Notes under the pieces: generated by a model
Databases searched by the model: none
What the model was told of the DNA's origin: nothing
The model's input: only the letters and a program-made list of their open reading frames with translations
Translations under genes and position numbers: made by a program
Shown here: in pieces, positions 19,594-46,969 of the stretch
Layout: every line of letters begins with the position of its first letter
Numbering within the stretch: the stretch's first letter is position 1
Assembly (NCBI GenBank): GCA_002070115.1
Contig: MWCO01000049.1
Span: 1 to 46,969, forward strand
From: Deltaproteobacteria bacterium ADurb.Bin207
GTDB taxonomy: Bacteria; Myxococcota_A; Polyangia; Polyangiales; Polyangiaceae
Length of the DNA: 46,969 nt
Reading direction: 5' to 3'

Positions 19594-19601
19594 CATAGCC
19601 C

Positions 19602-20525: not shown

Positions 20526-20532
20526 GGACTCC

Positions 20533-21156
20533 TCACTCAAACGTCCGGTTGACGAGCGCGGGCGCTGGCACCATTTGGGGTATCTTCGGCGCATGCGGAT
20601 TGTGGCAATCGAGGCAATGATTGCGAGACCGCGGACCGCGACGAAGATCCCAATACCCCGTCATCCCACCATGGGCACCCCGTTGGTACTCGACCAACCG
20701 CTGCGCATGGCATTGCCCACACAAACGCACCACTTCGTCATAAGAAATCCGCTCACCCCCCGCGAGATTGAAGCTATCGAACCCGGGCACGGAATGACAC
20801 GTCCGGCAGGACTGGCCGCCGTGCTGAATCTCCACACCCTTGTGGAAGGCCTCGAGATGATTGGCCTGCGCATATTTTTCTTTCGGCTCCACAAAGCCAT
20901 GACACGTGCGGCATGGCGTGCGGGCAGCCTTGCCATCAGGGCCTGCCACCCCAGTGTTCATCCCCAATTCCGGATAGGGCCTGTGAATGCTGACCGGAAA
21001 AAGCCCCGCCGAAGCAGAAGGGCTTGCCGCAAGCTTTGCCGACTTGGTGTCATCGGCACGCGCCTGTTCACAGCCACATAACGACCACGGCACCACCACG
21101 AGGATGGCAAGCGTGCGCAGCAGAGTCTCGAGCATTCTCGGAGCCAACGAGAGCAT
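20533..21156 (-). CDS. Tetrahaem cytochrome c lipoprotein
   Basis: This 207-residue protein has four CXXCH haem-binding motifs at residues 82-86, 117-121, 146-150 and 181-185. The last is in a CLDCHNPH context common in small multihaem cytochromes. The N-terminus is a signal with lipobox SLCGC (cysteine 29), predicting an anchored periplasmic lipoprotein. GGGAG before the ATG at 21156 fixes this start; the longer frame runs into the divergent promoter region. As first gene of the arm it precedes the Fe-S and NrfD-type subunits by a few bases. The likely role is to take electrons from that module and hand them to NapB/NapA. Extra histidines (QANHLEAFHKG) may be axial ligands. Confidence 0.88.
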   Translation of the reverse strand: MLSLAPRMLETLLRTLAILVVVPWSLCGCEQARADDTKSAKLAASPSASAGLFPVSIHRPYPELGMNTGVAGPDGKAARTPCRTCHGFVEPKEKYAQANHLEAFHKGVEIQHGGQSCRTCHSVPGFDSFNLAGGERISYDEVVRLCGQCHAQRLVEYQRGAHGGMTGYWDLRRGPRSRNHCLDCHNPHAPKIPQMVPAPALVNRTFE

Positions 21157-21238
21157 GGGAACTCTCCCGACAAGGTTGAAAGATAGGACCGGCCAGGAGG
21201 CTAGCGCGCCCAGCCATCCCTGTTCAAGGATAAAAACC

Positions 21239-21269
21239 GATATAGCAGTCTTGAATTCTTCTTTCGCAA
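21239..21269 (-). promoter_or_regulatory. Candidate sigma-70 promoter for the tetrahaem/Fe-S/NrfD/Rrf2 arm
   Basis: Read on the minus strand, TTGCGA (21264-21269) is followed after 19 bases by TATATC (21239-21244), with TGC directly before it as an extended -10. It lies about 85 bases upstream of the tetrahaem start, in the 130-base region shared with the divergent napD-like gene. The short inverted words TTCAAG and CTTGAA flank the -10 region. Judged by eye only. Confidence 0.35.
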
Positions 21270-21286
21270 CGACTAGCGTTCCCCCC

Positions 21287-21553
21287 ATGGCCGTCAGCTC
21301 TTTACTTCTCTGGCTCGATCCGGATGCCAACGATCCCGATCGCACGCTCGAGAGCCTTGCTGCACAGCCTCATCTTACGCTCGGCACGCCCGTTCAACTT
21401 CGCGTCCCTGCCGTGCTCGACACGCCTACCATCCAACAGGACATCGATACCGTGGCCCAGCTCCTCGCTCTGCCAGGTATCGCCCATGTCGATGTGCTCG
21501 GAGTCTTCTTCGACGATACGCAAACCGTCTCCCCCGGAGGCTCGGATGTCTGA
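21287..21553 (+). CDS. NapD-like chaperone for nitrate reductase
   Basis: This 88-residue protein has the NapD pattern: an N-terminal beta-strand AVSSLLLW, a central helix (IQQDIDTVAQLLALPG) and a last strand VDVLGVFFDD where NapD has a similar strand ending in acidic or aromatic residues. NapD is a small cytoplasmic protein that binds the Tat signal of NapA and holds it back until the molybdenum cofactor is in place. The gene overlaps napA by 8 bases, with the NapA ATG lying inside its last codons, which supports the assignment. The ATG at 21287 has no strong ribosome-binding site. Similarity is weak, so position weighs heavily in the call. Confidence 0.7.
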   Translation: MAVSSLLLWLDPDANDPDRTLESLAAQPHLTLGTPVQLRVPAVLDTPTIQQDIDTVAQLLALPGIAHVDVLGVFFDDTQTVSPGGSDV

Positions 21554-23957
21554 TCCTGTCTCACGACGTACATTCGTTCGGTCCGCGGCGCTTGGTGTCG
21601 CGTCGGCCGCCGCGATGACCACGATTCACCGTTCGGCCGAAACCGCCCCCCCGGTCGATCCTCGCACCACCATGCCAGACTTGGACTGGCAAAAAGCTCC
21701 TTGCCGCTTTTGCGGCACGGGATGTCATGTGCTCGTCGGAGTCAAAAACGGCAAAGTCGCCGCCATTGCGGGAGATCCCGAGGCAGATGTCAACAAAGGA
21801 TTGCTCTGCGTCAAAGGCTATCATGTGGGTTTGATTTTGTATGGGGCGGACCGGCTGACCAAACCGTTGCTTCGAAAAAATGGCCAGCTCGTGCCCATCG
21901 GATGGGATGAGGCGCTCGATATCCTCGCGGACCGTGTGATGAAAGACCCCAAGGGTTTCGCCTTTTATGGCAGCGGCCAGTGGACCATCCCCGAAGGATT
22001 CGCGGCGCAAAAATTCATGAAAGGCGGCCTGGGCAACAACCATATCGACCCCAACGCACGGCTATGCATGGCCTCGGCCGTCACCGGATTTCTTTCCACC
22101 TACGGTGTCGATGAACCGGCCGGATGTTACCAGGATCTCGATGAATGCAATGTCCTCATCCTATGGGGGAATAACCCGGCGGAAATGCATCCCGTGCTGT
22201 TTTCTCGCCTCATCGATCGACGTTCCAGAGGCGACGACATCCGTCTCATCGATATCTGCACACGGCGGACCCGATCCAGCCTGCATGCCCAAAATGTCCT
22301 TATTTTCAAACCACATACGGACCTTGCCATCGCCAATGGCATCGCTCATCTCTTGCTCGAACGCGGCACTTACGACAAGGAATTCGTCGAGAAGCATTGC
22401 GCGTTTCGCGCCGACAGCGAGCCGCGAGAACTGATCGGCAAAGCCATTTCCTTCGAAGAATATCGAAAGAGCCTCGAGCCCTACACCCCTGAGCATGTGC
22501 AAGAGATTTCGGGTGTACCCGCCAAGGATATCCGAATGCTCGCGGACTTATTCGGCGACCGCTCCCTGCGAATCACAAGCCTTTGGTGCATGGGCATGAA
22601 CCAGCATACCCAAGGAACGGCCATCAATTCCCTGGTGCATGGCATTCATTTGCTCAGCGGTCATTTTGGCAAACCTGGCGACGCGCCCACCAGTTTGACG
22701 GGTCAGCCTTCTGCTTGCGGAACCGTGCGAGAAGTCGGCACCCTGTCACATGCTCTACCGGGAGGGCGGGAGGTAGCCAACGACGAGCATCGAAAACAGG
22801 CTGAGGAATTCTGGAAACTACCGCCAGGACGCATCCAGAAAACGCCTGGATACCACACCATCAAGATGTGGGAGCAGTTCTGCAAACCCACCGACCAGGG
22901 CGGCGATATTCATACCATCTGGGTTCAGGTCACCAACCCCGGACAAACCCTGCCCAACCTGAACAAACTTTTCCGGGCCAAAGAAAAACTCCAGGACAAA
23001 TTCCTCGTCGTATCCGACGTTTACCCCACCGCCACGACACAACTCGCCGATATGATCCTCCCTTCGGCATTGTGGGTCGAAAAAAATGGGATGTTCGGCA
23101 ACTCCGAACGACGCACCCAACAATGGTTCCGAATGGTAAAACCACCAGGCGATGCTCGCGACGATTGCTGGCAAACCATCGCCCTGGCTCGTCGTCTCTA
23201 CGACCGCGGACATCCGGGTATGAAGGATAAAGACGGCAATTTCCTATTCGATGTCCGGGACTCGAACGGAAAACCCGTGCCCGTCTGGGATTTCAAACAC
23301 TACTACGACGTCAATGTGGACAAGCATCTTTTTGAGGAATATCGGCTATTTACACGTATGAAGCACAAGGATCTCGCGCCGTACGACGAATACGTCAAGG
23401 CGCGGGGGCTTCGATGGCCGGTCGTTCAGCAGGCGGACGGAAGCTGGCGTGAGACTCGATTCCGATTTGCGGAATTCGACGATCCGTACGTGAAAAAAGG
23501 GCAAGGAATCGAGTTTTATCACTCGACCTCGAAGGATGGGCGGGCGCAGATTTGGTTCCGTCCTTATGTTCCTCCTCCGGAATCGCCGAGCAAAGATTTT
23601 CCTTTCTGGCTTTGCACGGGCCGCGTGTTGGAGCATTGGCATACGGGAACGATGACGCGACGGGTACCGCAACTGCTTCGCGCGATGCCGGAGGCGTACG
23701 TGGAGATTCACCCCGACGATGCACGGGATGCGGGGATTCATAATGGCGATCTGGTGAAGATCAGCACGCGACGGGGCAGTATCGACGTTCGGGCTTGGAT
23801 TGGCGGCAGGGGTTCTCCCCCTCGGGGTCTGCTTTTCGTCCCCTTCTTCGATGAAAACAAGCTGATCAACCTTGTGACCCTCGAGGATTTCGACTTTTTC
23901 TCCAAGCAGACGGATTATAAAAAGTGCGCGGCGAGCATTGCTCGCGTGACCTCCTGA
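21546..23957 (+). CDS. napA: Periplasmic nitrate reductase catalytic subunit
   Basis: This 803-residue molybdoenzyme reduces nitrate to nitrite in the periplasm. A Tat signal (SRRTF, residues 6-10) is followed by the [4Fe-4S] ligands C53, C56, C60 and C88. The molybdenum-ligand cysteine is C174 in NARLCMASAV. The NapA signature GMNQHTQGT...LTGQPSACGT.REVGTLSH is strongly conserved. It carries two molybdopterin guanine dinucleotides in this family. GGAGG stands 5 bases before the ATG at 21546, which overlaps the napD-like stop. The NapB-like gene begins 7 bases after the stop. The length is close to that of short NapA proteins such as Desulfovibrio's, with a few insertions (e.g. around VRDSNGKPVPVW). 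No napC is present. Confidence 0.95.
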   Translation: MSDPVSRRTFVRSAALGVASAAAMTTIHRSAETAPPVDPRTTMPDLDWQKAPCRFCGTGCHVLVGVKNGKVAAIAGDPEADVNKGLLCVKGYHVGLILYGADRLTKPLLRKNGQLVPIGWDEALDILADRVMKDPKGFAFYGSGQWTIPEGFAAQKFMKGGLGNNHIDPNARLCMASAVTGFLSTYGVDEPAGCYQDLDECNVLILWGNNPAEMHPVLFSRLIDRRSRGDDIRLIDICTRRTRSSLHAQNVLIFKPHTDLAIANGIAHLLLERGTYDKEFVEKHCAFRADSEPRELIGKAISFEEYRKSLEPYTPEHVQEISGVPAKDIRMLADLFGDRSLRITSLWCMGMNQHTQGTAINSLVHGIHLLSGHFGKPGDAPTSLTGQPSACGTVREVGTLSHALPGGREVANDEHRKQAEEFWKLPPGRIQKTPGYHTIKMWEQFCKPTDQGGDIHTIWVQVTNPGQTLPNLNKLFRAKEKLQDKFLVVSDVYPTATTQLADMILPSALWVEKNGMFGNSERRTQQWFRMVKPPGDARDDCWQTIALARRLYDRGHPGMKDKDGNFLFDVRDSNGKPVPVWDFKHYYDVNVDKHLFEEYRLFTRMKHKDLAPYDEYVKARGLRWPVVQQADGSWRETRFRFAEFDDPYVKKGQGIEFYHSTSKDGRAQIWFRPYVPPPESPSKDFPFWLCTGRVLEHWHTGTMTRRVPQLLRAMPEAYVEIHPDDARDAGIHNGDLVKISTRRGSIDVRAWIGGRGSPPRGLLFVPFFDENKLINLVTLEDFDFFSKQTDYKKCAASIARVTS

Positions 23958-23964
23958 GGCGAGT

Positions 23965-24702
23965 ATGGCTAAACCTCCTTCTTTTGCCCCCTACCCTCGC
24001 GCGGTCAACGTGGCGCTCGCGATGGTGATTGGTGTCGCGGTGGTGGGCTATGCCGTCGGAATCCGGCCTGCACAAGTGCAAGCAATCTTTCCAGCGCTCG
24101 CGGTAAGCCCTTCGGGGGCCATCCCTGGGCAGACCTACCTGGATTGGCGACAGCGTCGGGATGGGCCCAACGCGGTCGTTCGCAGCAATCTGGGGGATTT
24201 GCGGGCGGCATTGCCAGCGGTATCGTCGCCGGTGGTCCGCACCCCGGAAAACAAGCGAGAAGCCTTAGAAACCCGTGCAAATATCAGGGCTTACGAGGGC
24301 GCTCCGCCAACCATTCCCCACCCTATCGATGAGCAGAACCCGGGCTCGTGCCTGGCCTGTCACCGCGATGGGCTGGTCGTGGAAGGACGTGTGGCACGCG
24401 CCATTTCCCATGCAACCTACACGAATTGCACGCAATGCCATGTGACCATGGAGCCGCGTTTCGAAAAACCACCCGCCCCCGACAACGCGTTTGTGGGGTA
24501 TCGCCTGGACAGAAAGCGCGAACAGGCCTGGCAAGGCGCTCCTCCCGTCATTCCCCATTCGGTGTGGATGCGGGATCGTTGTGAGAGTTGTCACGGCGTG
24601 GCGGGCCTTCCCGGGCTTCGAACGACGCACCCCGAGCGGGGACAATGCACGCAATGCCACGTGTCGCGGACGGAATACTCTCCTCCCTGGGCGGCGCGCT
24701 AA
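23965..24702 (+). CDS. NapB-like tetrahaem cytochrome c (internally duplicated)
   Basis: This 245-residue protein has an N-terminal hydrophobic helix (residues 13-32), either a signal or an anchor. It carries four CXXCH motifs at 129-133, 155-159, 206-210 and 228-232. NapB, the electron-transfer partner of NapA, normally has two haems. Here the NapB-like module occurs twice: EGAPPTIPH (111-119) before the first haem pair and QGAPPVIPH (190-198) before the second, 79 residues apart. The histidine in each IPH corresponds to NapB's axial ligand. The second copy (RCESCHG..TTHPERGQCTQCHV) is closer to classic NapB. The gene starts 7 bases after napA, so it is the expected partner. The frame is clean throughout, which argues against a sequencing artefact. 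Confidence 0.8.
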   Translation: MAKPPSFAPYPRAVNVALAMVIGVAVVGYAVGIRPAQVQAIFPALAVSPSGAIPGQTYLDWRQRRDGPNAVVRSNLGDLRAALPAVSSPVVRTPENKREALETRANIRAYEGAPPTIPHPIDEQNPGSCLACHRDGLVVEGRVARAISHATYTNCTQCHVTMEPRFEKPPAPDNAFVGYRLDRKREQAWQGAPPVIPHSVWMRDRCESCHGVAGLPGLRTTHPERGQCTQCHVSRTEYSPPWAAR

Positions 24703-35387: not shown

Positions 35388-37409
35388 ATGGATCCAAAAT
35401 CACTCCTGATCCGAAGCTCTTTTGCCGCGGCGGCGATCACGTTTGCTGCACCAGGTTGGGCAGGTCCCGTCGACCTGCTCGAAGCGGATACCCAGGCTTT
35501 CGTTCAGGACAGCGGCGCCATGGATGTCATCTATTCGCTTCGTTATCAGGACAACGAAGGGCGCTCGGCCATCAAGTCCATTGGACAATTCTATGAACCC
35601 GTCGCTTTTACCCGCGGAATCCTCCATGCTGGAAATAATACAATAGCTGTAACCATGTCTCCCAATGGCGGCGGCTACTACAAAGCGTCTTTCGACTCCG
35701 CCGTTCCGCGCGGCACCTATACGCTTGAACTGCATTATCGAAGTGACAAAAGGTTCGCCGAGCCCACGGTGTCGAACGATGGCAAAAATCTGCTTGCCGT
35801 CTGGTTCAACCCCGTGCGCTGGACGATGCCTATCGAGAAATCTATCGTCAAACTGGTGCTCCCTCTGCCTTTGGAAGGGAATCTACAGCGTCCGGAGGAT
35901 ATCACGCCCGCCATGGTCGACGGGCTCGGGGTGATCACGGACGATCAAAACAAGCGTTTGCAGGATCATTTCGCTTTCGTGTATTCCGATTATCAGGATT
36001 CGCGGCGGCTCACGGTATATACCGAAAAAAAATCGCTCCCGGCGCAAGGGGTCCACATGGTGCGGATCTACATCCCGCAATCTTCGATGCCGAACCTATC
36101 GAAGACGAGCAATACGCGTCCTGACGCCACCATCCCCGCCATTCCAACGGATACCGGGTCCCCCGCGACGTCAGCCCCGGTCACGCCGCGAGACGTACCC
36201 ATTTCTTTCGGGGACTACGCAGCTCGCGCCATCGTTCTAGCGATACTATCATTTTTTCTCAATCCAATTGCATTGTTTGCCGAGTTCTTGGTTCTGGGCC
36301 TGCCGTTGTGGATCATCGATAAAATCGCTAAAACCACACTACTTCGTAAAATATTTCTGCCTGCTAACGAATTCAAGTTTGCGCATCCCACGAAAGGCAC
36401 GATTTTGGGCTGGACGGCAGTCCTGGTGCCTTTTCGGTTGACGTGGGCGATTATTGCGGGGTTGGGCAGCGGGGTGGTTGCTCTTCTTCGGCTTCATCCG
36501 ATCATTGAATTATACATCAAGAAAAAAGCGCCTGTATATGAATCCCCTGAAATTACGGTATCTACTTTTCGAAAGGACGGCTATGTGCCCACGCTGGCTC
36601 CCGAGGAAGCGGCGGTGGTGATGGACCGTCCTATCAAAGCCATCAATTTGCTCGTTCTCAATCTTCAAGCCCGAGGGGCCATCCAGGTGTTGAGCCGCAA
36701 TCCCTTGCAGGTGCAAGTCGTGGATGCGTCTCGGGCGACGACGGAACCGGAAAAGTGTTTTTTGAAGTCATTGACCGGGCGGGGAACCTTGACCCAGCAA
36801 GGAATGCTTGAGGTCCTCAAGAGCCTGACCGCTTCCGTGCAGCCCAAAATATGGCGTGCGGATACCGCGGCGACGGTCGAGGCTTATCGGCAGCGCGCGC
36901 AACAGCGTTGGGATGAGTTGCGCGCGGCTCCTCCCACCTCTCGCCCGCAGTTTTTCAATACATGGTATGCCGATCTCTACCTTCAAGACACGTTTTTTCA
37001 GGACTTAGGCACGACGTTTGGGGCCATTCCCACCAGCGTTCCTGCTGATCGTCCCCTGACGACCCTTGGGGCTGCTCGGGAACAATCTTCCCTATGGGGT
37101 GGTGTGGAACGGGTCCAGGATTTTGCCGAAGGCGTGGCGGATACCATCGAATCGGGGGCGAAAGCCACCATCGACCGGATCGAGAATCTGTTCAACTTCG
37201 ATGGCGAGGCGGGTGCACGTCCCGGTATCCAAAAAGGTGTGGCGGTTGCGGTCGGTTACGATGCTTGCCACTCTGCTTGCCACTCTGCTTGCCACTCTGC
37301 ATGCCATTCGGCCTGTCATTCCGCTTGCCATAGCGCCTGTCACGATGCTTGCGCCTGTCATTCCGCTTGCCATAGCGCCTGTGTCTCGAGCTGCGCAGGG
37401 AGTTTCTGA
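35388..37409 (+). CDS. DUF2207-like membrane protein with C-terminal Cys/His (ACHS) repeat tail; candidate radical SAM substrate
   Basis: This 673-residue protein begins with a signal peptide (about 1-25, cleavage near WA-GP). A beta-rich extracytoplasmic domain (26-230), a Pro/Thr linker (240-270), hydrophobic segments at about 278-310 and 337-368, and a soluble domain (395-450) with LAPEEAAVVMD and LQARGAIQV follow, as in DUF2207-type membrane proteins. A helical region runs to about 605. The tail (626-669) consists of six ACHS units, ACHD, AC, two more ACHS and ACVSSC. It holds 12 cysteines and 9 histidines; the rest of the protein has one cysteine (C457). The next gene, a radical SAM/SPASM enzyme, overlaps by one base. 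I infer that the tail is its substrate and faces the cytoplasm when modified. The product is unknown; a metal-binding tail is the main alternative. Confidence 0.8.
   Translation: MDPKSLLIRSSFAAAAITFAAPGWAGPVDLLEADTQAFVQDSGAMDVIYSLRYQDNEGRSAIKSIGQFYEPVAFTRGILHAGNNTIAVTMSPNGGGYYKASFDSAVPRGTYTLELHYRSDKRFAEPTVSNDGKNLLAVWFNPVRWTMPIEKSIVKLVLPLPLEGNLQRPEDITPAMVDGLGVITDDQNKRLQDHFAFVYSDYQDSRRLTVYTEKKSLPAQGVHMVRIYIPQSSMPNLSKTSNTRPDATIPAIPTDTGSPATSAPVTPRDVPISFGDYAARAIVLAILSFFLNPIALFAEFLVLGLPLWIIDKIAKTTLLRKIFLPANEFKFAHPTKGTILGWTAVLVPFRLTWAIIAGLGSGVVALLRLHPIIELYIKKKAPVYESPEITVSTFRKDGYVPTLAPEEAAVVMDRPIKAINLLVLNLQARGAIQVLSRNPLQVQVVDASRATTEPEKCFLKSLTGRGTLTQQGMLEVLKSLTASVQPKIWRADTAATVEAYRQRAQQRWDELRAAPPTSRPQFFNTWYADLYLQDTFFQDLGTTFGAIPTSVPADRPLTTLGAAREQSSLWGGVERVQDFAEGVADTIESGAKATIDRIENLFNFDGEAGARPGIQKGVAVAVGYDACHSACHSACHSACHSACHSACHSACHDACACHSACHSACVSSCAGSF
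37263..37394 (+). repeat. 12-base coding repeats for the ACHS tail, including a 30-bp direct duplication
   Basis: Units of 12 bases encode Ala-Cys-His-Ser. The first three are identical; later ones differ at synonymous sites (Ser as TCT, TCG, TCC and AGC; His as CAC and CAT; Cys as TGC and TGT). Bases 37311-37340 are repeated exactly at 37353-37382, which adds the second block after an out-of-register AC. Confidence 0.95.
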
Positions 37410-38836
37410 TGGATACCACCCCACGGGATACTGCTCCATTCGCTCGGATCGACAGTTTCGTAGCCGCCACCCGCACGGCGATCCACGTGCGACGACAAGA
37501 TCGTCTGCTGATGATCCGGCCCGAAAAAACCCTTGGTATCAACGATTCCGCGGTGGAAATCCTTTCCGCGCTCTATGACCCCAAAGCTGGCCCGTCCCAC
37601 GGGGTCGTCCAAAAGCTTGCTTCCCGCTATGGCGTCGAAGTGGATCGGATCGCTTCCGATGCCGCCGCTTTGCTCGATACCATCGCTTCCATGATGCGCG
37701 ATGACTTTCAACCGCGAGCCAATGTCAAATATGTGTCCTTTGACCGCTCCCGGCTGCGTTATCCCGTACTCGCGGAAATCGCGCTCACGTATCGATGTCA
37801 GAATCGCTGCACGTTTTGCTATGCCGCAAGCCCGACCCGTCGCGACCACGGGCCGCTGATGAGCACCGAGCAGGTCAAACGGGTGATCGACCGTATTTAC
37901 CACGAAGCCCATGTTCCCACGCTCAGTTTCACGGGGGGAGAAGCTACCTTGCGCAAAGACCTTCCCGAATTGGTGCGCCATGGCAGCCAGTTGGGATTAC
38001 GCATCAATCTCATCACCAACGGGCTTCGGGCGGCCAAACAGGATTATGCCCGCTGCCTCGTCGACCATGGGCTGGCCTCGGCTCAAGTGTCCATCGAAGC
38101 GGCCACCGCTGAACTTCACGATCGAATTGTCGGTCGCCAGGGCGCTTTCGCACGTACGGTGGCGGGAATTCGAGCCTTTCGCCAGTTGGGAATCCATGTT
38201 CATACCAATAGCACCTTATGCACCACCAACATCGATCAAGCCCAAGATATCATTGCATTCGTGTCCGAAGAACTCGGATTGAGCACATTATCGATGAATA
38301 TGCTTATTCGGACGGGAAACGGATTGGACCCTTCGATGCCTCCCATCACCTATGCGCAAATCGCGAAAACACTGCCCATGCTGATCGAAGAGGCCCATCG
38401 CCGCAAGGTCAAGTTCGTATGGTATTCTCCATTGCCCTATTGCGTTGTCAATCCCGTCTTGTTGGGACAAGGAGCCAAATCTTGCGCGTGCGTGAGCGGC
38501 ATCGTCTCGGTCAATCCCGCTGGCGAACTGCTGCCGTGTTCCTCGTTTCAGGAGGGGATCGGCAGTTTGCTTCACCGACCCTTCGAAGAGATCTATGACA
38601 GTCCCCAAGCTCGCTACTGGCGCGACCGACGATACATACCGCCGGCATGTCGCACTTGTCCGGATGTCGATGTATGCGCGGGAGCTTGCCCACTTTATTG
38701 GGATGCTGTTGGCAACTTCTCCGAGATTCCACAACCAAACGCTTCGGATCCCAGCGATTGGCAGCGCTGGAAACAAGAGCGCATCGAAGGCGGTAGTTTT
38801 GGGGTGCCTCGTCCCGTTTGTGACCAGGGGAAATGA
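37409..38836 (+). CDS. Radical SAM/SPASM peptide maturase with N-terminal PqqD-like (RRE) domain
   Basis: This 475-residue enzyme has three parts. Residues ~20-98 look like a PqqD/RRE peptide-recognition domain (RLLMIRPEKTLGIND then a helical DAAALLDTIASM). Residues ~118-330 are the radical SAM barrel, with cluster ligands C130, C134 and C137 (CQNRCTFC) and the SAM-binding GGE at 176-178. Residues ~345-475 form a SPASM domain with cysteines 361, 377, 414, 417, 423, 427 and 471, enough for auxiliary Fe-S clusters. Relatives such as PqqE, AnSME and sactipeptide or ranthipeptide maturases install thioether or C-C bonds in ribosomal peptides. The start overlaps the previous stop (TGATG), with AGGGAG upstream. 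The adjacent ACHS tail is the natural candidate substrate. Confidence 0.92.
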   Translation: MDTTPRDTAPFARIDSFVAATRTAIHVRRQDRLLMIRPEKTLGINDSAVEILSALYDPKAGPSHGVVQKLASRYGVEVDRIASDAAALLDTIASMMRDDFQPRANVKYVSFDRSRLRYPVLAEIALTYRCQNRCTFCYAASPTRRDHGPLMSTEQVKRVIDRIYHEAHVPTLSFTGGEATLRKDLPELVRHGSQLGLRINLITNGLRAAKQDYARCLVDHGLASAQVSIEAATAELHDRIVGRQGAFARTVAGIRAFRQLGIHVHTNSTLCTTNIDQAQDIIAFVSEELGLSTLSMNMLIRTGNGLDPSMPPITYAQIAKTLPMLIEEAHRRKVKFVWYSPLPYCVVNPVLLGQGAKSCACVSGIVSVNPAGELLPCSSFQEGIGSLLHRPFEEIYDSPQARYWRDRRYIPPACRTCPDVDVCAGACPLYWDAVGNFSEIPQPNASDPSDWQRWKQERIEGGSFGVPRPVCDQGK

Positions 38837-38839
38837 GCC

Positions 38840-40078
38840 ATGGGTAACCTTCGTGAATTCGACCAATTCATCCAAAACCGCTTGCAGGTCGTTCAAAATA
38901 TCAAGTCGCAATTGCTTGCCTTACAAGCGCATTACGAGACGTTTTTCCAAGAAGTCAGCCAGGTTCGGGAACACGAACTCGCCCAACTCGTTGTCGAGTT
39001 CAATCGTCGCCGAGGCTCCCTTCCCTTTCGGCTTGATGAGGCCCTCGACAGGGAGCACGAGCGCGCGCAGGCCGAGATGGACAAGCAGTTGAAAAACCTT
39101 CAAACGAAACATGCCTCCCTCATGCAGACAGCGGAAAACATACGGCGGAAAAGCCATGAATTGGAAAATGGCGTCCATAAAAAACATGTGGATCTCGACC
39201 AAAAAGAAGAGGAACTGAAGGCGCGTAACGAGAAACTCCTGCAAGGAATCGCTTCCTACAACTCGCGAATCCGTGAATTAGGAAGCGGTTTTGGCTTTCT
39301 TTTCAATATTTTCCAGATGCGAAGCCTCCAGGCGGAACGTCGACGGCTGGACCAAGAGCATGAAGACGTCGCCGCGCGCATCGAATCCATCCGAGCACAA
39401 TGGGTCCAAAGAGAAAAGGAGTTCAACGTCAAACAGGACGAGTTATTGCGTAAATGGCGAGAGACGACGACGAAAGCTTCTACTCTGCAATCCAAGATTG
39501 ACCTGTTGAATGTCACGCGAGCTTCCCTGGTAGAGCGCACCACCCTCGAACGTGTATTGTTTGAGAAGTATCCGTCGCCTCCCCCCCAAGGCAACGACGT
39601 TGTCTGCCCCCGCTGCAAGTCCGGCAATGCGGCGTCGAATCGTTTTTGTCATATCTGCGCACAGCGTTTGCAGCCCGATCGGCCGGACCTGGAGGGTAGC
39701 ATTCCGGAACTGGCGGAACTCAATCACCACCACCGGCGTTTTTCCGAAGGAATGAAAGCGTGCCAAGAAATCATTGGCTTGCTGACGGGCCTGGAGTCTG
39801 GATTGAAAGCGTTCTCAAAAAGCATCGCCAATATGATAAAAACGGAAACCACCTACCCCGTCGGTAAACTATCCATCGACGTTCCCGCCCAGTGTGTACA
39901 ATTTGCTAATAGTTTCGAGCAGTTAGGAAAATCTTGTCAGGACAAAACTTCCCATCCCACCGAGTTTGCAAAGCTGGTGAAAAGCGCTGCGCAGACATAT
40001 AGTGAAGAAAAATTACAAGCTTTTTTCGAAAGAATGGGCAAGGAACTATCCGTACAAGCCAAATCCCAATGGGGATGA
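38840..40078 (+). CDS. Coiled-coil protein with central zinc ribbon
   Basis: This 412-residue soluble protein is mostly long charged helices (residues ~1-240), with strong coiled-coil character except for a short hydrophobic break at SGFGFLFNIFQM (149-160). A zinc ribbon follows, with C256, C259, C270 and C273 (CPRC...FCHIC). The C-terminal ~120 residues are again helical. No signal or true membrane span is visible. It starts 3 bases after the radical SAM stop and has its own GGGG-rich ribosome-binding site, so it belongs to the same operon. I do not recognise the family; an adaptor or scaffold role in the modification system is a guess. Confidence 0.75.
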   Translation: MGNLREFDQFIQNRLQVVQNIKSQLLALQAHYETFFQEVSQVREHELAQLVVEFNRRRGSLPFRLDEALDREHERAQAEMDKQLKNLQTKHASLMQTAENIRRKSHELENGVHKKHVDLDQKEEELKARNEKLLQGIASYNSRIRELGSGFGFLFNIFQMRSLQAERRRLDQEHEDVAARIESIRAQWVQREKEFNVKQDELLRKWRETTTKASTLQSKIDLLNVTRASLVERTTLERVLFEKYPSPPPQGNDVVCPRCKSGNAASNRFCHICAQRLQPDRPDLEGSIPELAELNHHHRRFSEGMKACQEIIGLLTGLESGLKAFSKSIANMIKTETTYPVGKLSIDVPAQCVQFANSFEQLGKSCQDKTSHPTEFAKLVKSAAQTYSEEKLQAFFERMGKELSVQAKSQWG

Positions 40079-40254
40079 CGTCCCACCGGGTGGCTGTGTG
40101 CACTGCGCATGAACACTTCACAGAATTGGAACGCCGAGAGCACAGTTTGCGCAACGGCGACCTTGCGTGGACCGTCGGAGTCGCGGGATTTCTGATGGTT
40201 GTCGCGGCAGTCCTGAGCGCACGCTTCTTGCATGTTGAGACAGAGGAGGTTTCG

Positions 40255-41397
40255 ATGCTGAATCGTGCGTTCTCTGTTGCCGTCCCTATCGCGGCCCTTC
40301 TCGCGTTTTTTGCGATGGGAGGCTGCGGGAACTCAAACAGCGAAGATTCCAAGCTCGCGGGCTCTGGCGGTAGCACGGGAGCTGGCTCCGGCGGCAAGGG
40401 CGGCACCACGGGCACCGCGGGTACGGCAGGAACCGCGGGCTCCCAGCCCTTCCCCGGAACAGGTGGCACGGGCGCCGACTCCGGTAGCTCCGATTGGCCG
40501 GTGAGCGAAGAAATTTGCGATCAGCTCGACAACAACCAGGATGGGCAGGTGGACGAAATCTGTTCATGCACGCCAGGCAATTCCCAGCCCTGCTACCCGG
40601 GCCCGCCGAATACCCGCGGGGTAGGCGCATGCAAAGACGGCGTGCAGGTATGCGAAGACTCCGGCAAGTGGGGCGCTTGCACCGGGTCCGTGTTGCCAAG
40701 CGAGGACATCAGCGACGGCATCGACAACGACTGCGACGGTACGTCCGACAATGGCTCTGACACTCAGTGTCCTCCGGGCAAAAGGCCCACGCCGGAGGAC
40801 TGCTCGAACGGGGTCGACGACGACTGCGACGGCTTGGTGGACTGCCTGGACCCGGACTGCCCGCCTTGCACCGAGAACAACTGTGCCGATGGTGTCGATA
40901 ACGACGGCGATGGGTTAGTGGACTGCCTGGACCCGGACTGCCCGCCCTGTCAGGAGAACTGCTCCGATGGGATAGACAACGACGGCGATGGGCTGATCGA
41001 CAGCCTGGACCCGGATTGCCCCGGCTTCTGCCCTCCCGGGGAGGAGTGCTGCGATGGTATCGACAACAACGGGGACGGTCGAATCGACGAAGGTAACGTA
41101 TGCGACGGTTACGGCGAGCCCTGCCCACCAGGAGCCTATCAATCCTGCGACTGCTACTGCGGTGTTCACCGCAAGTGCCAGGCGGACGGCACTTGGGGTC
41201 CATGTCTCGTCGACGGCTCCTGCAACGTCGCCCAAATCACCTCGCACTCCCAATGCGGAGCGAATGGAATGTGCGATTTCGGGGAGTGCGCCGGGCACTG
41301 GTACGGCGGACAATGCTACCACCACTCCGATTGCCCCGCCGGCCAGGTTTGCGATCTTGGCTATTGCATCCAGGACCATTACTATCCCTGCCCGTAA
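40255..41397 (+). CDS. MopE-like metal-binding-repeat lipoprotein
   Basis: This 380-residue lipoprotein has lipobox FAMGGC (cysteine 24) and a Gly/Ser/Thr/Ala linker of about 55 residues. Six acidic repeats of the type D.IDNDGDG..D follow, matching the putative metal-binding MopE motif. Two repeats also carry LVDCLDPDCPPC. The C-terminal ~120 residues are cysteine-rich (CDCYCG, CDFGECAG, CDLGYCIQ). GAGGAGG before the ATG at 40255 sets the start. The protein is probably exposed on the cell surface and binds calcium or another metal. It is the first gene of the G+C-rich stretch and lies 42 bases upstream of the Rieske gene, so it may head that operon. Confidence 0.8.
   Translation: MLNRAFSVAVPIAALLAFFAMGGCGNSNSEDSKLAGSGGSTGAGSGGKGGTTGTAGTAGTAGSQPFPGTGGTGADSGSSDWPVSEEICDQLDNNQDGQVDEICSCTPGNSQPCYPGPPNTRGVGACKDGVQVCEDSGKWGACTGSVLPSEDISDGIDNDCDGTSDNGSDTQCPPGKRPTPEDCSNGVDDDCDGLVDCLDPDCPPCTENNCADGVDNDGDGLVDCLDPDCPPCQENCSDGIDNDGDGLIDSLDPDCPGFCPPGEECCDGIDNNGDGRIDEGNVCDGYGEPCPPGAYQSCDCYCGVHRKCQADGTWGPCLVDGSCNVAQITSHSQCGANGMCDFGECAGHWYGGQCYHHSDCPAGQVCDLGYCIQDHYYPCP
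40837..40947 (+). repeat. 81-base in-frame repeat inside the MopE-like gene
   Basis: A GTGGACTGCCTGGACCCG-type segment starting at 40837 recurs at 40918, a period of 81 bases (27 residues). It adds one DNDGDG unit plus a CLDPDCPPC segment, and looks like a recent expansion. Confidence 0.8.
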
Positions 41398-41439: not shown

Positions 41440-41862
41440 ATGAACCGACGCCCGTTCGTCCAGGCCCTCGCGTGGACTGCCTGCGGTAGCTGCCTCGGGC
41501 TCGGCGCGCTGTCCCTTCGTCCGCTGGAGCGCGCGCTCGTCCCTGTGCTCCTCGGTGACCTCTCGCTCCTCCCGCGAACCGGCCTCCGTCTGTTTCCCGC
41601 TCACCAGGTCGCCGTGGTACGAACCGACGGGGGATTCGGGGTTTTGTCGACGCGATGCACCCACCTGGGCTGCGCCCTGCGCCTCAGGGGGCACGAGCTT
41701 GTCTGCCCCTGCCATGGAGGGCTATTTTCGCAAGACGGTGCCGTTATCGCCGGCCCGCCGCCCGCTCCTTTGCCTTGGTTCGAGGGAGGCGTCACTCCCG
41801 ACCGCAAGCTGTTTTTCTATCCGTCGCGTCCTCTCGCGGAACGACGCCTTGTTCAGGTGTGA
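41440..41862 (+). CDS. Rieske [2Fe-2S] protein
   Basis: This 140-residue Rieske protein has a short Tat-like N-terminus (NRRPFVQAL) and a hydrophobic anchor. Cluster ligands are C73 and H75 (CTHLGC) and C89 and H92 (CPCHGG); C78 and C91 form the expected disulfide. Rieske proteins take the first electron from quinol at the Qo site of a cytochrome bc complex. AAGGAG before the ATG at 41440 fixes the start. The cytochrome b gene starts 3 bases after the stop. The protein is shorter than mitochondrial or Rhodobacter forms but complete in the cluster-binding fold. Confidence 0.93.
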   Translation: MNRRPFVQALAWTACGSCLGLGALSLRPLERALVPVLLGDLSLLPRTGLRLFPAHQVAVVRTDGGFGVLSTRCTHLGCALRLRGHELVCPCHGGLFSQDGAVIAGPPPAPLPWFEGGVTPDRKLFFYPSRPLAERRLVQV

Positions 41863-41865
41863 GCC

Positions 41866-42816
41866 TTGTCAGCGTCGAAGCTCCTGGGCTGGATTGCGGT
41901 GTTGCTCCCTTGGCTCTCTGCCGAACGTACCGCTCGACAGTTTCTGCCTGCGTCGAAGCTCCTGGGTTGGATCGCGGTGTTGCTTCTGCTACTCGCCGTG
42001 GCCTCCGGGTTCTTGCTTGCATGCTTCTACGTCCCGACGCACGACCAGGCCTACGTCTCGGTGAGGGAGCTGGCGTTCGCGCGGCCTTACGCCCTCTGGG
42101 CTCGTGGGATGCACCGTATCGCGGCTCACCTGGCCATTTTGTTCGCCCTCCCGCACTTTGCGTTCCTGCTCTGGAAGGACCGCAGTCGGGATGCGCGCCG
42201 CCTCGCGTGGGCAACCGGGCTCCTGGCCTTCGCCCTGCTCGGGTTGCTCGCCTTCCTCGGCCGCGTGCTCCCGTGGGACGTTCATGGCGCTGTTTCTCTT
42301 TCCATCGCCCTGTCGTTCTTCGGCTTCGCACCAGTGGCCTCCGAGGCCCCACAGCCCGCTGTGCTCCCCGCGGTCTGGTTCCTTCACCTGTTGAGCGCCG
42401 CGACATTGGTCGCGTGCGTGGCCTCGCATCTCCCGTGGCGCGCCGTGGTCAGGGGCGGCAGCTTCGCACGCGAGCGCCTTCCTCTGCTGACGCTCTCTGT
42501 CTTGCCGGTGGTCGCCGCCGCCGCGTTCGCGCTGCGCCCTTCGCTTGGGCTCCCTTTCGATGGATTCACCCCTTCGACCAGCTCCGCAGCGGAGTGGTAC
42601 CTCCGCTGGCTCCAGTTCCTCGCCGAGCGCAGCCTCACGCTCGCCCGTATCGTGACCGCAGCCCTGGTGGCTCTGGCCGTTGCCCTGCCCTGGGCTGCTA
42701 CGCCCCCGATGCGTATGCGCTTACGTCACGCCTGGGTCGCAGTCTTGGCGGTCCTGCTGCTCCTGAGCGCGATGCCCATCGGTGCCGGCGCGGCTTCCCC
42801 GCAGGTGGGGCCGTGA
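41866..42816 (+). CDS. Cytochrome b of a bc-type complex
   Basis: This 316-residue membrane protein carries the four haem-b ligands of cytochrome b. His83 and His97 are in the second helix and His174 and His188 in the fourth, each pair 14 residues apart. GRVLPWD (132-138) matches the conserved PW segment. The Qo-site PEWY motif appears as AEWY (242-245). The C-terminal part is short, giving about eight helices. The start is a TTG at 41866 after the Rieske stop; I see no better start. Near the N-terminus ASKLLGWIAVLL occurs at residues 3-14 and again at 29-40, a 26-residue duplication. Four bases overlap with the next gene. It should oxidise quinol and send electrons to the multihaem cytochromes. 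Confidence 0.88.
   Translation: MSASKLLGWIAVLLPWLSAERTARQFLPASKLLGWIAVLLLLLAVASGFLLACFYVPTHDQAYVSVRELAFARPYALWARGMHRIAAHLAILFALPHFAFLLWKDRSRDARRLAWATGLLAFALLGLLAFLGRVLPWDVHGAVSLSIALSFFGFAPVASEAPQPAVLPAVWFLHLLSAATLVACVASHLPWRAVVRGGSFARERLPLLTLSVLPVVAAAAFALRPSLGLPFDGFTPSTSSAAEWYLRWLQFLAERSLTLARIVTAALVALAVALPWAATPPMRMRLRHAWVAVLAVLLLLSAMPIGAGAASPQVGP
41872..41985 (+). repeat. 78-base tandem duplication at the start of the cytochrome b gene
   Basis: GCGTCGAAGCTCCTGGG at 41872 recurs at 41950. About 36 bases match with two differences (GGCTGGATT versus GGTTGGATC). The period of 78 keeps the frame and doubles the first hydrophobic segment. Confidence 0.85.
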
Positions 42817-44165
42817 AAGCCAAACCGTGGCTGGGAGCCGTCTTGGGGCTCGCCGGGACGCTGGTCGTCGCGCTCGCGTACGAGAAAACACACCCAGCCG
42901 CGTGGCAGAGCGTCCAGCTCGCCTATTCTGATCGCTTGGTCGACGCTGGTTGGCCTCCCGTCTCCGTCGGCGTTCGGTCGCTTCGCGCGCCCGGCGGCGG
43001 CAGTGAGGACCGCTGCGTCACATGCCACCTTGGCATGGCGTTGCCTGCTGCCTTCGAAGCCCCGTTCCAGCGTCACCCCCACACGTCCTGCGCGCTCGGA
43101 CCCGCTGAGCAGGGCTGCACGGCGTGCCACCGTGGGGAGCCCCTCGGCCTCACGCAAGCCGACGCCCACGCCTCGCGTACACCAACGCCACGCGCGATGC
43201 TCTCCGGCGGTCTCACCGAACACGGCGTCCGGACCATCGAGGCGGGCTGTGCCACCTGCCACGTGGACCGAAGCACCGGCGTGCTCCGCTACGACCCGCA
43301 GAGAGTCCCGGATATCGCTCGCGGCCTCGAGGTGTTCATCAAGCAGGGCTGCCGCTCCTGCCACGCTTTGGAGGGAGTCGCCGCCTTCGGTGAAGCCGGC
43401 CCGGCTCTGGGCCGTGTGGGTCGACGTCGTACCGCGGCGTTCCTCCGCTCGAGGCTGCGATTCCCCCAGCGCGGCACCGTGGCTTCACCCATGCCCCCGT
43501 TGGCGGTCCCCGACGCGGATGCCGAGCGACTCGAGCTTTTTCTGATGGCGCAGATAGGTCCCGAGCACGAGCTGGGCACCAGCCCGGCCGAAGCGTTGTT
43601 GGCCGCCACGACCATCCCCCGCCCCATCGACCACTTCCCGGAAAACCTGCCCCTTGAGCCCACCGCCGCGTCCGGTGCCTTGTGGATGCATGCCGTGGGG
43701 TGCATCGGTTGTCACCGCCTCGATGACGATGGCGTGGGTGTGCCCGACTTACGGCGCGTCGGCTGGTACGCCACGGCGGAACGGCTTCGCACGGCACTCG
43801 AGCATCCCGAAGCGTTTGCCCCGGGCTCGTACATGCCAGTCTTCGACCTACCCCCCACCGCGCTCGGCGCCGTGCTCGCTTACCTGTCGCTGCAACGAAC
43901 GTTGCTCCCATCCGCTCCGGAAAGAGTGCTCGCGGAAGTCTGCGGCCCATGCCACGGCCCTGCGCGGGATCCCAAGGTGGTCGTGCTCGCGACACAGCCG
44001 CCTGACATGGTCGAGATGGCAGCGCGGCTTGCTCCCGAGGAGTTCGCCAAGGTCGCGGAGGAAGGCCGCGAGGGGACTGCGATGGCACCGTGGGGCAAGG
44101 TGCTCGCTCGCCCCTTCCTCGCGGGGCTTCATGGCCGAATCGCAGGCCAGGGGGGCTCGCCATGA
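42813..44165 (+). CDS. Hexahaem cytochrome c, membrane-anchored
   Basis: This 450-residue protein has an N-terminal hydrophobic helix (residues 5-22) and six CXXCH motifs at 68-72, 102-106, 146-150, 180-184, 297-301 and 377-381. The fourth is followed by a segment typical of single-haem cytochrome c domains (QGCRSCHALEG...GPAL), with MPPL as possible methionine ligand. The fifth pairs with YMPVFDL. So it combines a multihaem front part with two or three class-I-like domains. The start is GTG at 42813, overlapping the cytochrome b stop by four bases (GTGA). Electrons from the bc complex would pass through it to the nonahaem protein. No known family member is recognised. Confidence 0.85.
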   Translation: MKAKPWLGAVLGLAGTLVVALAYEKTHPAAWQSVQLAYSDRLVDAGWPPVSVGVRSLRAPGGGSEDRCVTCHLGMALPAAFEAPFQRHPHTSCALGPAEQGCTACHRGEPLGLTQADAHASRTPTPRAMLSGGLTEHGVRTIEAGCATCHVDRSTGVLRYDPQRVPDIARGLEVFIKQGCRSCHALEGVAAFGEAGPALGRVGRRRTAAFLRSRLRFPQRGTVASPMPPLAVPDADAERLELFLMAQIGPEHELGTSPAEALLAATTIPRPIDHFPENLPLEPTAASGALWMHAVGCIGCHRLDDDGVGVPDLRRVGWYATAERLRTALEHPEAFAPGSYMPVFDLPPTALGAVLAYLSLQRTLLPSAPERVLAEVCGPCHGPARDPKVVVLATQPPDMVEMAARLAPEEFAKVAEEGREGTAMAPWGKVLARPFLAGLHGRIAGQGGSP

Positions 44166-46354
44166 CTTCGAAGGGGAAGGGCTGCGGCGCGACGGCGGCG
44201 CTGTGCTTTTTGTTGCTGTTGGCGGCGATGGCCCCGACCTCGTGCGCTCGCAAGAAAAGCACGGAGCAGGTGCCCTTGGTATCGGCCGAGAGCGCGGCGC
44301 GACTCGTGGTCGAGGGCCCGATGGACCAGGTCGGGTTCGCTCGACCCATCAAGCTCACGGCGCGCGTCGACGGCGCATCCAACCCCCATGACTGGACGTT
44401 CCGATGGACGCAGGTGTGGGGATCTGACCCACAGAAGCTAGTTGTCTCGGGCCCAACGCTGGAGCTGACGACACCCCCTCCCCCGCCGCCGAAAGACGTG
44501 GGTGACTACTCGGGACGGGTCGTCCCCATCACGGCGCGAGCGGCTGGTCGGATGGTCTTTCGGGTCGAGGCCGCATCGGGCTTCACCACGCTCGAGACCT
44601 CGGTCGAGATCACGCCCGCGTTCCCGTCAGCGGCCTGGCCCCGCGCCCCCGTGGGAATCGACGCCTACGTGGCAATCCTCCGACCAGAAGAGCAGGAAGC
44701 GCTGTCGCGCTCCGGTCTGCGGATCTTGCCTTCTCCCGCGCCCTATCTCGCGCGTGTGCTCGCGGACACGCCTCGCTGGTACAATGTGCGACACCCGGAC
44801 TTGGAGGGCTGGGACCTGCGGTCGGGCACCTGGCTCGGGAGCAAGGACTGCGGCAGAGCGGAGTGCCACCCCAACGAGTACGCCCGTTGGCAGCAAACCC
44901 GCCATGGTTCCGTCTTCACCCGCGGCATCCAGGGCCGGCTCAACCGATCTCGCGGCCCTTACGAGAGACACTGCGCGTCGTGCCACACGGTCGGGGACCA
45001 AGTGGGCGCGAACAACGACGGATTCGATGAGCGGGTGGCAAAGACGGGCTGGAAGTTCCCCGACCACCCGTCGGAGGCCGCCTGGCGCGACGTGCCCGAA
45101 TCGGTGCGCGAGCGCGCCAACGTGCAGTGCGAAAACTGCCATGGTGCCGGTTGGTTCTACGTGGGATATGGGGACGACGTCTGCGGGCAATGCCACGACC
45201 TGCCTCCCCAATATGCCATCTACGGCCAAGCGCGGCGCAACCGGATGTCCGTGTCTCATGAGAGCGTACGCGGGCGCGGGGCCAACGAGGTGTGTGCACA
45301 ATGCCACGTGGCGAGCGAATACCTCGCTTCCGTGCGTGGGTATCACTCGCGGTCCAAGCCCAACCGCGAGCTTGAGACACACCCGCGCGGTATCGGCTGC
45401 CCCGTGTGCCATGACCCCCATGGCACGCCCTGTAACAAGCAGCTCCGGCTCTGCGGGTTCCTCGAGGTGCCGGGGACCACGTTCGATGCGGGCCAGGGCG
45501 CCCTCTGCGTGTCGTGCCACAACGGCGAGGCAAACGTGGTACATGGTCCCCTGCTGAGACCCTTCATCCCGGGCGGAGACACGCGTGCCGGGCACGGCCA
45601 CGGCTCCTCCGAGCCGCCGCCCCCACCGGACCCCGATGCCGCGCCTCACGCGCCGCAACTTCAGGTGCTGACCGGACGCGGGGGCAGGTTCCTCGCCTTG
45701 CCCAAGTCTTTCGCCCGCTCCCCCGAGTACCCGCACATGGGGGTCCCCGATAGCTGCGTCGGCTGCCACTACGACCGCGACTCACGCCACGACGAAGGAC
45801 GTGGACACACGTTTCGTCTCATCGCCAACCCAGGCATCCAGGAACCGGTGAGCTGCGCACGGAAGATGTCCTTCGCCGAAGAGCGCGAAGCCCCCCTCCC
45901 CCCCTCTTGCGTTCGCTGCCACGGTCCGGGCGGAGGGCTCAACCGGGTCGCGCGCGGCGATTACGACGGCAACGGCAAGGTCGGAGGAATCGCCGACGAG
46001 GTCGACGGATTGCTCTCACTCCTCCGCGAGGAGATCGAGCGCCAGCTCTCCGAGATGGCGATCCGCGACCCGAACGGCGTCGTCGCGGCCACGTTCGCCA
46101 TCGTGGACGAGCGCATGGTGCTGGCGAGCGCAGATTGCCGTCCCTTGCGTTCGCGCACCGGCCCGCCGATACCGTTGCCGTCGGAGGATCCGTTACTGAG
46201 TAAGGCCATCTACAACTTCGTGCTCGTCGCACGCGACGGCAGCGGGGGCATCCACAACCCGCAGTACGTTGCGCGCCTGCTTCAGAACACGATCGAGGAG
46301 CTGGAAAGGAAACGCGGCGTGGAGCCGAGGCACGGGTGGAAGCGAGTCCAATGA
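44162..46354 (+). CDS. Nonahaem cytochrome c, probably exported
   Basis: This 730-residue protein has an N-terminal signal with a weak lipobox (PTSC, cysteine 28) and an Ig/PKD-like beta region (about 45-155) with a Pro run. A large multihaem domain follows. CXXCH motifs are at 271-275, 323-327, 341-345, 378-382, 413-417, 449-453, 532-536 and 583-587. A ninth site is CX4CH at 230-236 (CGRAECH), a variant known from Desulfovibrio cytochrome c3. An EF-hand-like YDGNGKVGG segment (601-609) may bind calcium. The ATG at 44162 overlaps the previous stop by four bases. It is the last gene of the operon; a role as extracellular or periplasmic electron acceptor or oxidoreductase is inference. Confidence 0.85.
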   Translation: MTSKGKGCGATAALCFLLLLAAMAPTSCARKKSTEQVPLVSAESAARLVVEGPMDQVGFARPIKLTARVDGASNPHDWTFRWTQVWGSDPQKLVVSGPTLELTTPPPPPPKDVGDYSGRVVPITARAAGRMVFRVEAASGFTTLETSVEITPAFPSAAWPRAPVGIDAYVAILRPEEQEALSRSGLRILPSPAPYLARVLADTPRWYNVRHPDLEGWDLRSGTWLGSKDCGRAECHPNEYARWQQTRHGSVFTRGIQGRLNRSRGPYERHCASCHTVGDQVGANNDGFDERVAKTGWKFPDHPSEAAWRDVPESVRERANVQCENCHGAGWFYVGYGDDVCGQCHDLPPQYAIYGQARRNRMSVSHESVRGRGANEVCAQCHVASEYLASVRGYHSRSKPNRELETHPRGIGCPVCHDPHGTPCNKQLRLCGFLEVPGTTFDAGQGALCVSCHNGEANVVHGPLLRPFIPGGDTRAGHGHGSSEPPPPPDPDAAPHAPQLQVLTGRGGRFLALPKSFARSPEYPHMGVPDSCVGCHYDRDSRHDEGRGHTFRLIANPGIQEPVSCARKMSFAEEREAPLPPSCVRCHGPGGGLNRVARGDYDGNGKVGGIADEVDGLLSLLREEIERQLSEMAIRDPNGVVAATFAIVDERMVLASADCRPLRSRTGPPIPLPSEDPLLSKAIYNFVLVARDGSGGIHNPQYVARLLQNTIEELERKRGVEPRHGWKRVQ

Positions 46355-46393
46355 CCTTCTCACGAGCGGGATGCATGTTTCCGCTGGCACCGC

Positions 46394-46421
46394 TCGACCC
46401 GACTTCGCTCGTCCGGGTCGA
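46394..46421 (+). terminator. Candidate hairpin after the cytochrome operon
   Basis: TCGACCCG and its complement CGGGTCGA form an 8-bp stem with a 12-base loop, 40 bases after the last stop. No T run follows, so intrinsic termination is uncertain. Confidence 0.35.
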
Positions 46422-46600
46422 CCGCTCGATTGGCTGCTGGGGCACCACGACCGCCCGCTCGTTCTCGATCTGCCGCGAGTATGAGTCGAGTTTTGCTGTG
46501 TAAACGACTGTCTATATGCATATTTTCCCTGCCTTCCAGACTCGATTCCACAACCGCTTGTGTCCAAATCCCCCAAGCCGAATTGGAATGTTTGCTAGCT

Positions 46601-46783
46601 GCTCTGCCTATCCTGAGCCATCCCCTCGTTTTTTCTCGAGCCTTTTTTGGTCCTACGACTGCTGGAAACAAGAACCTGCTTTGCGTGGCCGTGCTCTGCC
46701 TATCCTGAGCCATCCCCTCGTTTTTTCTCGAGCCTTTTTTGGTCCTACGACTGCTGGAAACAAGAACCTGCATTGCGTGGCCG
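46601..46783. repeat. Tandem duplication, unit about 92 bases
   Basis: The sequence from 46601 is repeated from 46693 with one internal mismatch over 91 bases. Each unit holds two T6 runs around CTCGAG. The period of 92 breaks any reading frame, so it is non-coding. It does not resemble an insertion sequence end that I recognise. Confidence 0.95.
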
Positions 46784-46969
46784 CGGTCACGGCCTACGCG
46801 TACGGTCACGGCACACGAGAAACGGCCACAATCTGGGAGACTACGCTCAACATATCGTAAGATGCCGACGCACCCTTCAGATCCACCCCCCAAGGGACCC
46901 CTCAATCCAAAGGCAAGGGGACCGTGTGGTCGGGACCCGTCGACAGAAATTTTTTCCACAACCCAGCTT

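Follow-up and report, generated by a model that had tools for sequence, protein, structure and literature searches.

A four-gene operon for a proposed Rieske complex with multihaem cytochromes

The window considered here is a stretch of 46,969 nucleotides of Deltaproteobacteria bacterium ADurb.Bin207 (family Polyangiaceae; contig MWCO01000049.1, assembly GCA_002070115.1). Near its right end, four genes on the same strand (41440-46354) encode a Rieske protein, a cytochrome b, a hexahaem cytochrome c and a nonahaem cytochrome c, in an operon of about 4.9 kb (Table 1). Three nucleotides separate the Rieske stop codon from the cytochrome b gene, the cytochrome b/hexahaem and hexahaem/nonahaem junctions overlap by four nucleotides each, and the last three genes start with TTG, GTG and ATG, respectively. 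An original prediction for this locus had claimed that these four genes overlap or nearly touch, which the open reading frames (ORFs), motifs and Pfam matches bear out; it had also called the complex fused, a term that suits the overlapping genes but not their products, which are four separate proteins. The 15 haem c sites it had counted are reached only if a CX4CH site is included, the plain CXXCH total being 14, and its two haem b sites were found as two Hx13H pairs in cytochrome b. The six CXXCH motifs of the hexahaem protein and the eight of the nonahaem protein compare with means of 0.014 (maximum 1) and 0.026 (maximum 2), respectively, over 10,000 shuffles.

The same four genes, in the same order and with the same haem counts, were observed at a second locus, L139, in the metagenome-assembled genome NC_groundwater_1650, which is labelled Myxococcota and belongs to the window's family. 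Identity between the two loci is 47-52% for the Rieske protein (52% by BLAST), 33% for cytochrome b, 46% for the hexahaem and 47% for the nonahaem protein. Because L139 repeats the genes, their order and the haem counts, the operon is more than a chance arrangement.

The Rieske cluster columns are invariant in six aligned Rieske proteins, and the haem b ligands H83/H97 and H174/H188 are invariant across four aligned cytochrome b sequences. The putative Qo-site motif of cytochrome b, canonically PEWY, reads AEWY in the window and SEWY in L139, and PEWY in a Phycisphaerae locus, L198. A direct repeat extends the N terminus of the window cytochrome b, and L139 is without it. The best NCBIfam match of this cytochrome b was ExtP, at 72.2 bits against a cut-off of 290, and ExtS remained below its curated cut-off (20.8 versus 100 bits). 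In the Pfam scan of the operon proteins, cytochrome c1 (PF02167) was below significance (11.5 bits, E 0.24); the missing c1/f speaks against a canonical bc1 or b6f complex only, because the hexahaem protein takes the place of c1/f, as in anammox complexes.

The hexahaem protein consists of an N-terminal transmembrane helix, a three-haem region and three c-type domains with a conserved Met. Relatives were found in 25 of 282 genomes of the phylum, own genome included. At 16 of 18 loci (18 of the 27 other hexahaem matches were fetched), Rieske and cytochrome b genes adjoin the hexahaem relative, with 6-9 CXXCH motifs in the c subunit, so that substitution of c1/f by a multihaem c is ordinary in the phylum. 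A profile search found an OcwA-type neighbour at none of the 18 loci, its two matches being the hexahaem-type proteins themselves. The rare element is the nonahaem partner, not the combination of Rieske and cytochrome b with a multihaem c.

Table 1. Coordinates of the operon and associated features in the window
Feature	Position	Strand	Details
Compositional island	41440..46354	.	GC 0.681, against 0.569 left and 0.563 right
Rieske [2Fe-2S] protein, 140 aa	41440..41862	+	PF00355 1e-11; CTHLGC, CPCHGG; N-terminal RR motif, hydrophobic stretch
Compact cytochrome b, 316 aa, short subunit-IV-like half	41866..42816	+	PF00033 4.2e-13, above cut-off
In-frame direct repeat, 40 nt, 90%, spacing 78	41867..41984	+	Within cytochrome b N terminus
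Hexahaem c, membrane-anchored	42813..44165	+	6 CXXCH; PF13442, PF00034; stands where cytochrome c1/f would
OcwA-type nonahaem c, 730 aa	44162..46354	+	8 CXXCH and 1 CX4CH
Signal peptide, probable lipoprotein cysteine C28	44162..44245	+	From sequence; C28 shared with L139 (LIAC there)
Haem-free Ig/PKD-like beta domain	44291..44626	+	Model residues 44-155 match Ig-like folds, Z about 8-9
Nine-haem domain and C-terminal helices	44825..46306	+	Model residues 222-715 on 6i5b_B 43-525, rmsd 3.6
CX4CH motif of haem 1, C230GRAECH	44849..44869	+	Ninth site
Host dispersed repeats	46360..46969	.	57 matches in own genome, window itself included

The nonahaem cytochrome and its relationship to OcwA

Against the PDB, a profile of the nonahaem family (30 members) matched 6i5b at 7.2e-37, 6qvm at 2.3e-24, NrfA (2j7a) at 2e-14 and MccA at 1.2e-11, and a phylum-only profile of ten sequences matched 6qvm (2.5e-18) and 6i5b (5.6e-18). 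Of these, 6i5b is the outer cell wall cytochrome OcwA, and 6qvm is presumably OmhA of Carboxydothermus. The nine haem sites of the family line up one-to-one, and in order, with those of OcwA. In addition, an AlphaFold model of the nonahaem protein, with a predicted local distance difference test score (pLDDT) of 78.5 and low-pLDDT regions within the haem domain, had 6i5b_B as its best match (Z 11.1, root-mean-square deviation 3.6, 326 residues), followed by immunoglobulin (Ig) domains matching residues 44-155. As judged from these profiles and the predicted structure, the nonahaem protein belongs with OcwA in the NrfA/MccA/c554 superfamily.

OcwA is described in PMC6703420 as a nine-haem, cell-surface terminal reductase of Thermincola with five-coordinate hemes at positions 2 and 5; its first four hemes (1-4) correspond to c554 and the remaining five (5-9) to NrfA. 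It reduces nitrite, and hydroxylamine is both reduced and oxidised by it. An earlier tree, as described in PMC7829351, placed OcwA in a subclade of Gram-negative nonahaem proteins. The original prediction had named, as what would overturn it, a last cytochrome matching a known soluble nitrite- or hydroxylamine-type enzyme, and our results fall between the two outcomes: OcwA lies in the NrfA/c554/MccA superfamily and reduces both compounds, but Pfam does not identify the nonahaem protein as NrfA or HAO, and no CXXCK site is present in it. An identity as NrfA, ONR or HAO was rejected because neither Pfam nor NCBIfam gave a match, PF02335 (NrfA) being without one at E up to 1; the Pfam matches obtained were Paired_CXXCH and Cytochrome_C554.

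The nonahaem protein shares with OcwA of Thermincola potens the C-terminal helices and an HN motif, besides the haem order. It differs in the CX4CH motif of haem 1, in an extra N-terminal Ig-like domain, in M362 in place of a common distal His and in its position within an operon with its own Rieske and cytochrome b genes; OcwA comes from a Gram-positive source. The CX4CH motif recurs in L139 and other myxobacterial homologues, whereas homologues from elsewhere and OcwA have an ordinary CXXCH there. Conserved His residues include H248, H420, H549 and H698. M362 replaces the His of 19 of the 30 family members and Y333 that of 20 of the 30, and haem ligation would therefore differ in detail. At the His-His distal positions of OcwA, QY was found for haem 2 and a single PH (H496) near haem 5, where the alignment is uncertain. 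The exported appearance noted in the original prediction agrees with the signal peptide and the probable lipoprotein cysteine.

Of 93 OcwA-type loci, some of them repeat fetches of one contig, four carry a Rieske or cytochrome b gene: L139, L198, L143 and L171. These genes adjoin the OcwA-type gene in L198 (Phycisphaerae) and lie on the same strand within 10 kb of it in L143 (Nitrospinota); in L171, the Rieske/cytochrome b gene is on the other strand, several kilobases away. The pairing of an OcwA-type protein with Rieske and cytochrome b is rare, yet it appears to occur in more than one phylum. At L198 (5973-10806), three genes follow one another, for a protein with nine CXXCH motifs, for a Rieske domain joined to a region that also has nine CXXCH, and for a cytochrome b.

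Proposed electron transfer chain and its acceptor

We propose that the operon encodes a self-contained anaerobic respiratory module, in which electrons pass from quinol through Rieske/cytochrome b and the hexahaem protein to a dedicated OcwA-type terminal reductase, a reading that we regard as probable, though not strongly so. Quinol would be oxidised at the Qo site of the compact Rieske/cytochrome b unit, one electron passing via the two b haems toward a second quinone site and the other via the Rieske cluster to the membrane-anchored hexahaem protein, which presumably acts in place of c1/f. The hexahaem protein would then pass electrons to the exported, probably lipid-anchored nonahaem protein. 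The genes, their motifs, the conservation of the operon and the kinship with OcwA are observed, whereas we infer that the proteins assemble as a complex, that electrons flow in this order and that the nonahaem protein is lipidated.

Rieske complexes with multihaem outlets have been described in several systems. The anammox clusters Kuste4569-4574 and Kustd1480-1485 combine Rieske, cytochrome b and a hexa-/octahaem c for cytochrome f, and Kuste4569-4574 adds a further multihaem enzyme of HAO type (PMC12954380). The window differs in its OcwA-type terminal cytochrome and in a subunit IV that appears to be merged into the short cytochrome b, and no anammox-type NAD(P) oxidoreductase gene was seen among the neighbouring ORFs and Pfam hits viewed in the window and L139. 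The original prediction had treated the Rieske protein as a contrast to Geobacter, but this does not hold, since ExtO of the Geobacter ext cluster (GSU2930-2937; ExtO/ExtP/ExtQ/ExtS) is itself a Rieske protein, accompanied by cytochrome b and several multihaem c proteins (PMC2825233, PMC5877670). In contrast to the window, the ext cluster is described with cytochromes of 5, 10 and 12 haems and with a porin, ExtI (PMC2825233, PMC5877670). Similarly, the Rieske/cytochrome b pair in a Nap and eHao cluster of Caldithrix has been proposed to feed an enzyme of the NrfA/HAO superfamily, but an octahaem eHao and NapM stand there in place of the hexahaem and nonahaem pair (PMC5317091). What is new among these complexes is an outlet of OcwA type, and our literature search found no paper treating OcwA together with Rieske. 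Many Gram-negative bacteria have OcwA-type nonahaem proteins, and the complex that feeds them has seldom been established. By tying such a protein to a quinol-oxidising Rieske complex, the operon offers a concrete candidate donor and a site of proton-motive force, in a unit small enough to be expressed heterologously. It also connects two topics described apart, the Rieske complexes that have multihaem outlets and the terminal reductases of the OcwA/NrfA branch.

As for the acceptor, a mineral reached via an outer-membrane conduit seems somewhat less likely to us than a soluble shuttle or a small oxidised compound of nitrogen, either hydroxylamine or the nitrite made by Nap, and the context in the own genome favours a soluble acceptor only modestly. 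We lean slightly toward nitrogen oxides because Nap lies in the window, no NrfA, Cu-NirK or MtrB/PioB match was found and the sample of the own genome held no other multihaem gene. About 17-21 kb from the operon are NapA (899 bits, cut-off 904), NapB and a tetrahaem cytochrome. In the own genome, neither PF02335 nor Cu-NirK was matched, in a genome-wide search that did not extend to cd1-NirS and octahaem reductases; MtrB/PioB was found in neither the own genome nor that of L139, the Geobacter-type porin ExtI being outside that search. The sample covered 1.127 Mb outside the window (one fully masked stretch, L138, was dropped), and its only ORF with more than one CXXCH motif was a DnaJ-like protein with two. 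The sole COX1-family match of the own genome is NorB-like, and the L139 genome has no COX1-family match. The original prediction of quinol electrons reaching an extracellular acceptor is supported for the quinol-oxidising unit with its multihaem outlet; its extracellular part is kept alive by the likeness to OcwA, but is opposed by the lack of an MtrB/PioB match and by the reduction of nitrite and hydroxylamine by OcwA itself.

Several observations weigh against the proposed module and its acceptor. Foldseek with the whole nonahaem model gave, in the 50 matches listed, only Ig-like domains or non-haem folds, and OcwA surfaced only in the second structural comparison. The nonahaem sequence alone did not find OcwA by phmmer (best match MccA, 0.0026), nor did the pair of window and L139 sequences, and the OcwA link therefore runs through intermediates; the window protein matches one locus, L140, at 2.6e-49. 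The His-His distal pockets of OcwA are only partly recognisable, all nine haem sites end in His so that the CXXCK of the NrfA-type catalytic site is lacking, and the predicted structure of cytochrome b was of low quality (pLDDT 54) and left unused. In addition, a nitrite sink or conduit may be missed among the families left out of the genome-wide search (cd1-NirS, octahaem reductases, ExtI), and the genome of L139 has NrfA (PF02335), which weakens the nitrite argument there.

The nonahaem lipoprotein could instead act at the cell surface, as OcwA does, and reduce minerals, humics or a partner cell via an undetected conduit. The top profile matches (OcwA and 6qvm), the lipobox in L139 with the conserved C28 and the Ig-like domain are consistent with this, as is the outer-membrane porin that accompanies the Rieske/cytochrome b genes of Geobacter (PMC5877670). 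We consider it rather unlikely, given the absence of MtrB/PioB from both genomes, the lack of a recognised porin gene in the operon or among the scanned L139 neighbours, and a sample that is otherwise free of multihaem ORFs, versus the cytochrome-rich Geobacter genomes (PMC2825233).

A role for the nonahaem protein as a hub that stores electrons or hands them on to NapAB or other periplasmic enzymes, rather than as a terminal reductase, would fit the Nap genes and tetrahaem cytochrome in the window and the Caldithrix pair, proposed to feed both Nap and eHao (PMC5317091). However, the Nap cluster owns a DsrP/DsrO-like quinol module, the operon differs from the Nap region in composition and no homologues of the window Nap were found in the compared L139 flanks. 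Members of the OcwA/NrfA superfamily are also mostly catalytic, and on balance we think a hub improbable. It is very improbable, in our view, that the chain runs in reverse, with hydroxylamine or another inorganic donor reducing the nonahaem protein and the complex passing electrons to quinone. Rieske/cytochrome b units normally oxidise quinol, no nitrifier-type genes were seen nearby and Pfam gives no HAO match for the nonahaem protein, although HAO is within the superfamily of OcwA, which itself oxidises hydroxylamine besides reducing it (PMC6703420).

Around the Nap genes (18340-24702), NapA and NapB were observed with divergent DsrP/NrfD-like and DsrO-like genes and the tetrahaem cytochrome, and this Nap system seems to be fed by a DsrOP-type quinol module.

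Distribution, composition and flanks of the operon

An alignment-based scan of genome contigs for the nonahaem protein gave at least 192 relatives among the matches listed, and 79 loci, L139 included, were kept. Strong matches, defined by E below 1e-100, were confined to two of the 78 relatives searched, the own genome and G438, a member of the same family whose match lies at the same contig place as that of the L139 genome (G282). In that search, two of the 48 genomes of the same family (own included) carry it. Matches of this strength were limited to the own genome among 282 of the phylum, and to the L139 genome among 143 of its order.

The operon is richer in guanine and cytosine (GC) than its surroundings, and this extends to third codon positions (GC3), at 0.78-0.81 in the three larger genes and 0.73 in the Rieske gene, compared with 0.654 in the NapB gene of the window. 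Haem motifs were rejected as the cause of the high GC, as GC3 is raised, in the Rieske gene too. In a first sample, none of 282 tiles of the own genome reached GC 0.66 (one tile was masked). Arguing against a single island of this kind, GC of at least 0.64 was found in 5 of 1060 two-kilobase tiles from elsewhere, at two places, one of them beside a phage integrase; the left edge is also not sharp, the preceding MopE-like gene having an intermediate GC3 of 0.736. The L139 operon fits its surroundings in GC (0.667 versus 0.658-0.670). The operon is best read as having been gained horizontally by the window's lineage, as suggested by GC of 68% against 57% together with host repeats on the far side. 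An assembly chimera was rejected as the simplest reading, since the right flank (46360-46969) matches repeats of the own genome and has the host GC of 0.563. More tentatively, and with less confidence than in the respiratory module itself, we suggest that the 4.9-kb operon may be a cassette that moves between myxobacterial genomes as a whole quinol-coupled chain with its own OcwA-type reductase. If so, a single transfer could open a new electron acceptor to a haem-poor host.

The last 95 bases of the window (46875-46969) are the end of a multicopy element, inside which the contig ends. Further copies of this element stand at the ends of contigs C29, C43, C149, C86 and C19, with others inside C4 and C144, and the assembly breaks on it. 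A high-GC patch of about 0.67 with a phage-integrase gene starts at the same element in C19 (L255:1-3900), and a 92-bp tandem duplication, 99% identical, lies beside the dispersed repeats at 46600-46783. Rfam and tRNA scans of the window gave no matches. Directly upstream of the operon (40069-41397) is the gene of the MopE-like cysteine-rich repeat protein, homologues of which, one 67% identical over 199 aa, lie several kilobases upstream of the L139 operon. Farther upstream (35388-38836), a 673-aa ORF without a Pfam match overlaps the gene of a radical SAM/SPASM protein with a PqqD-like domain, which suggests a peptide-modification or maturation pair.

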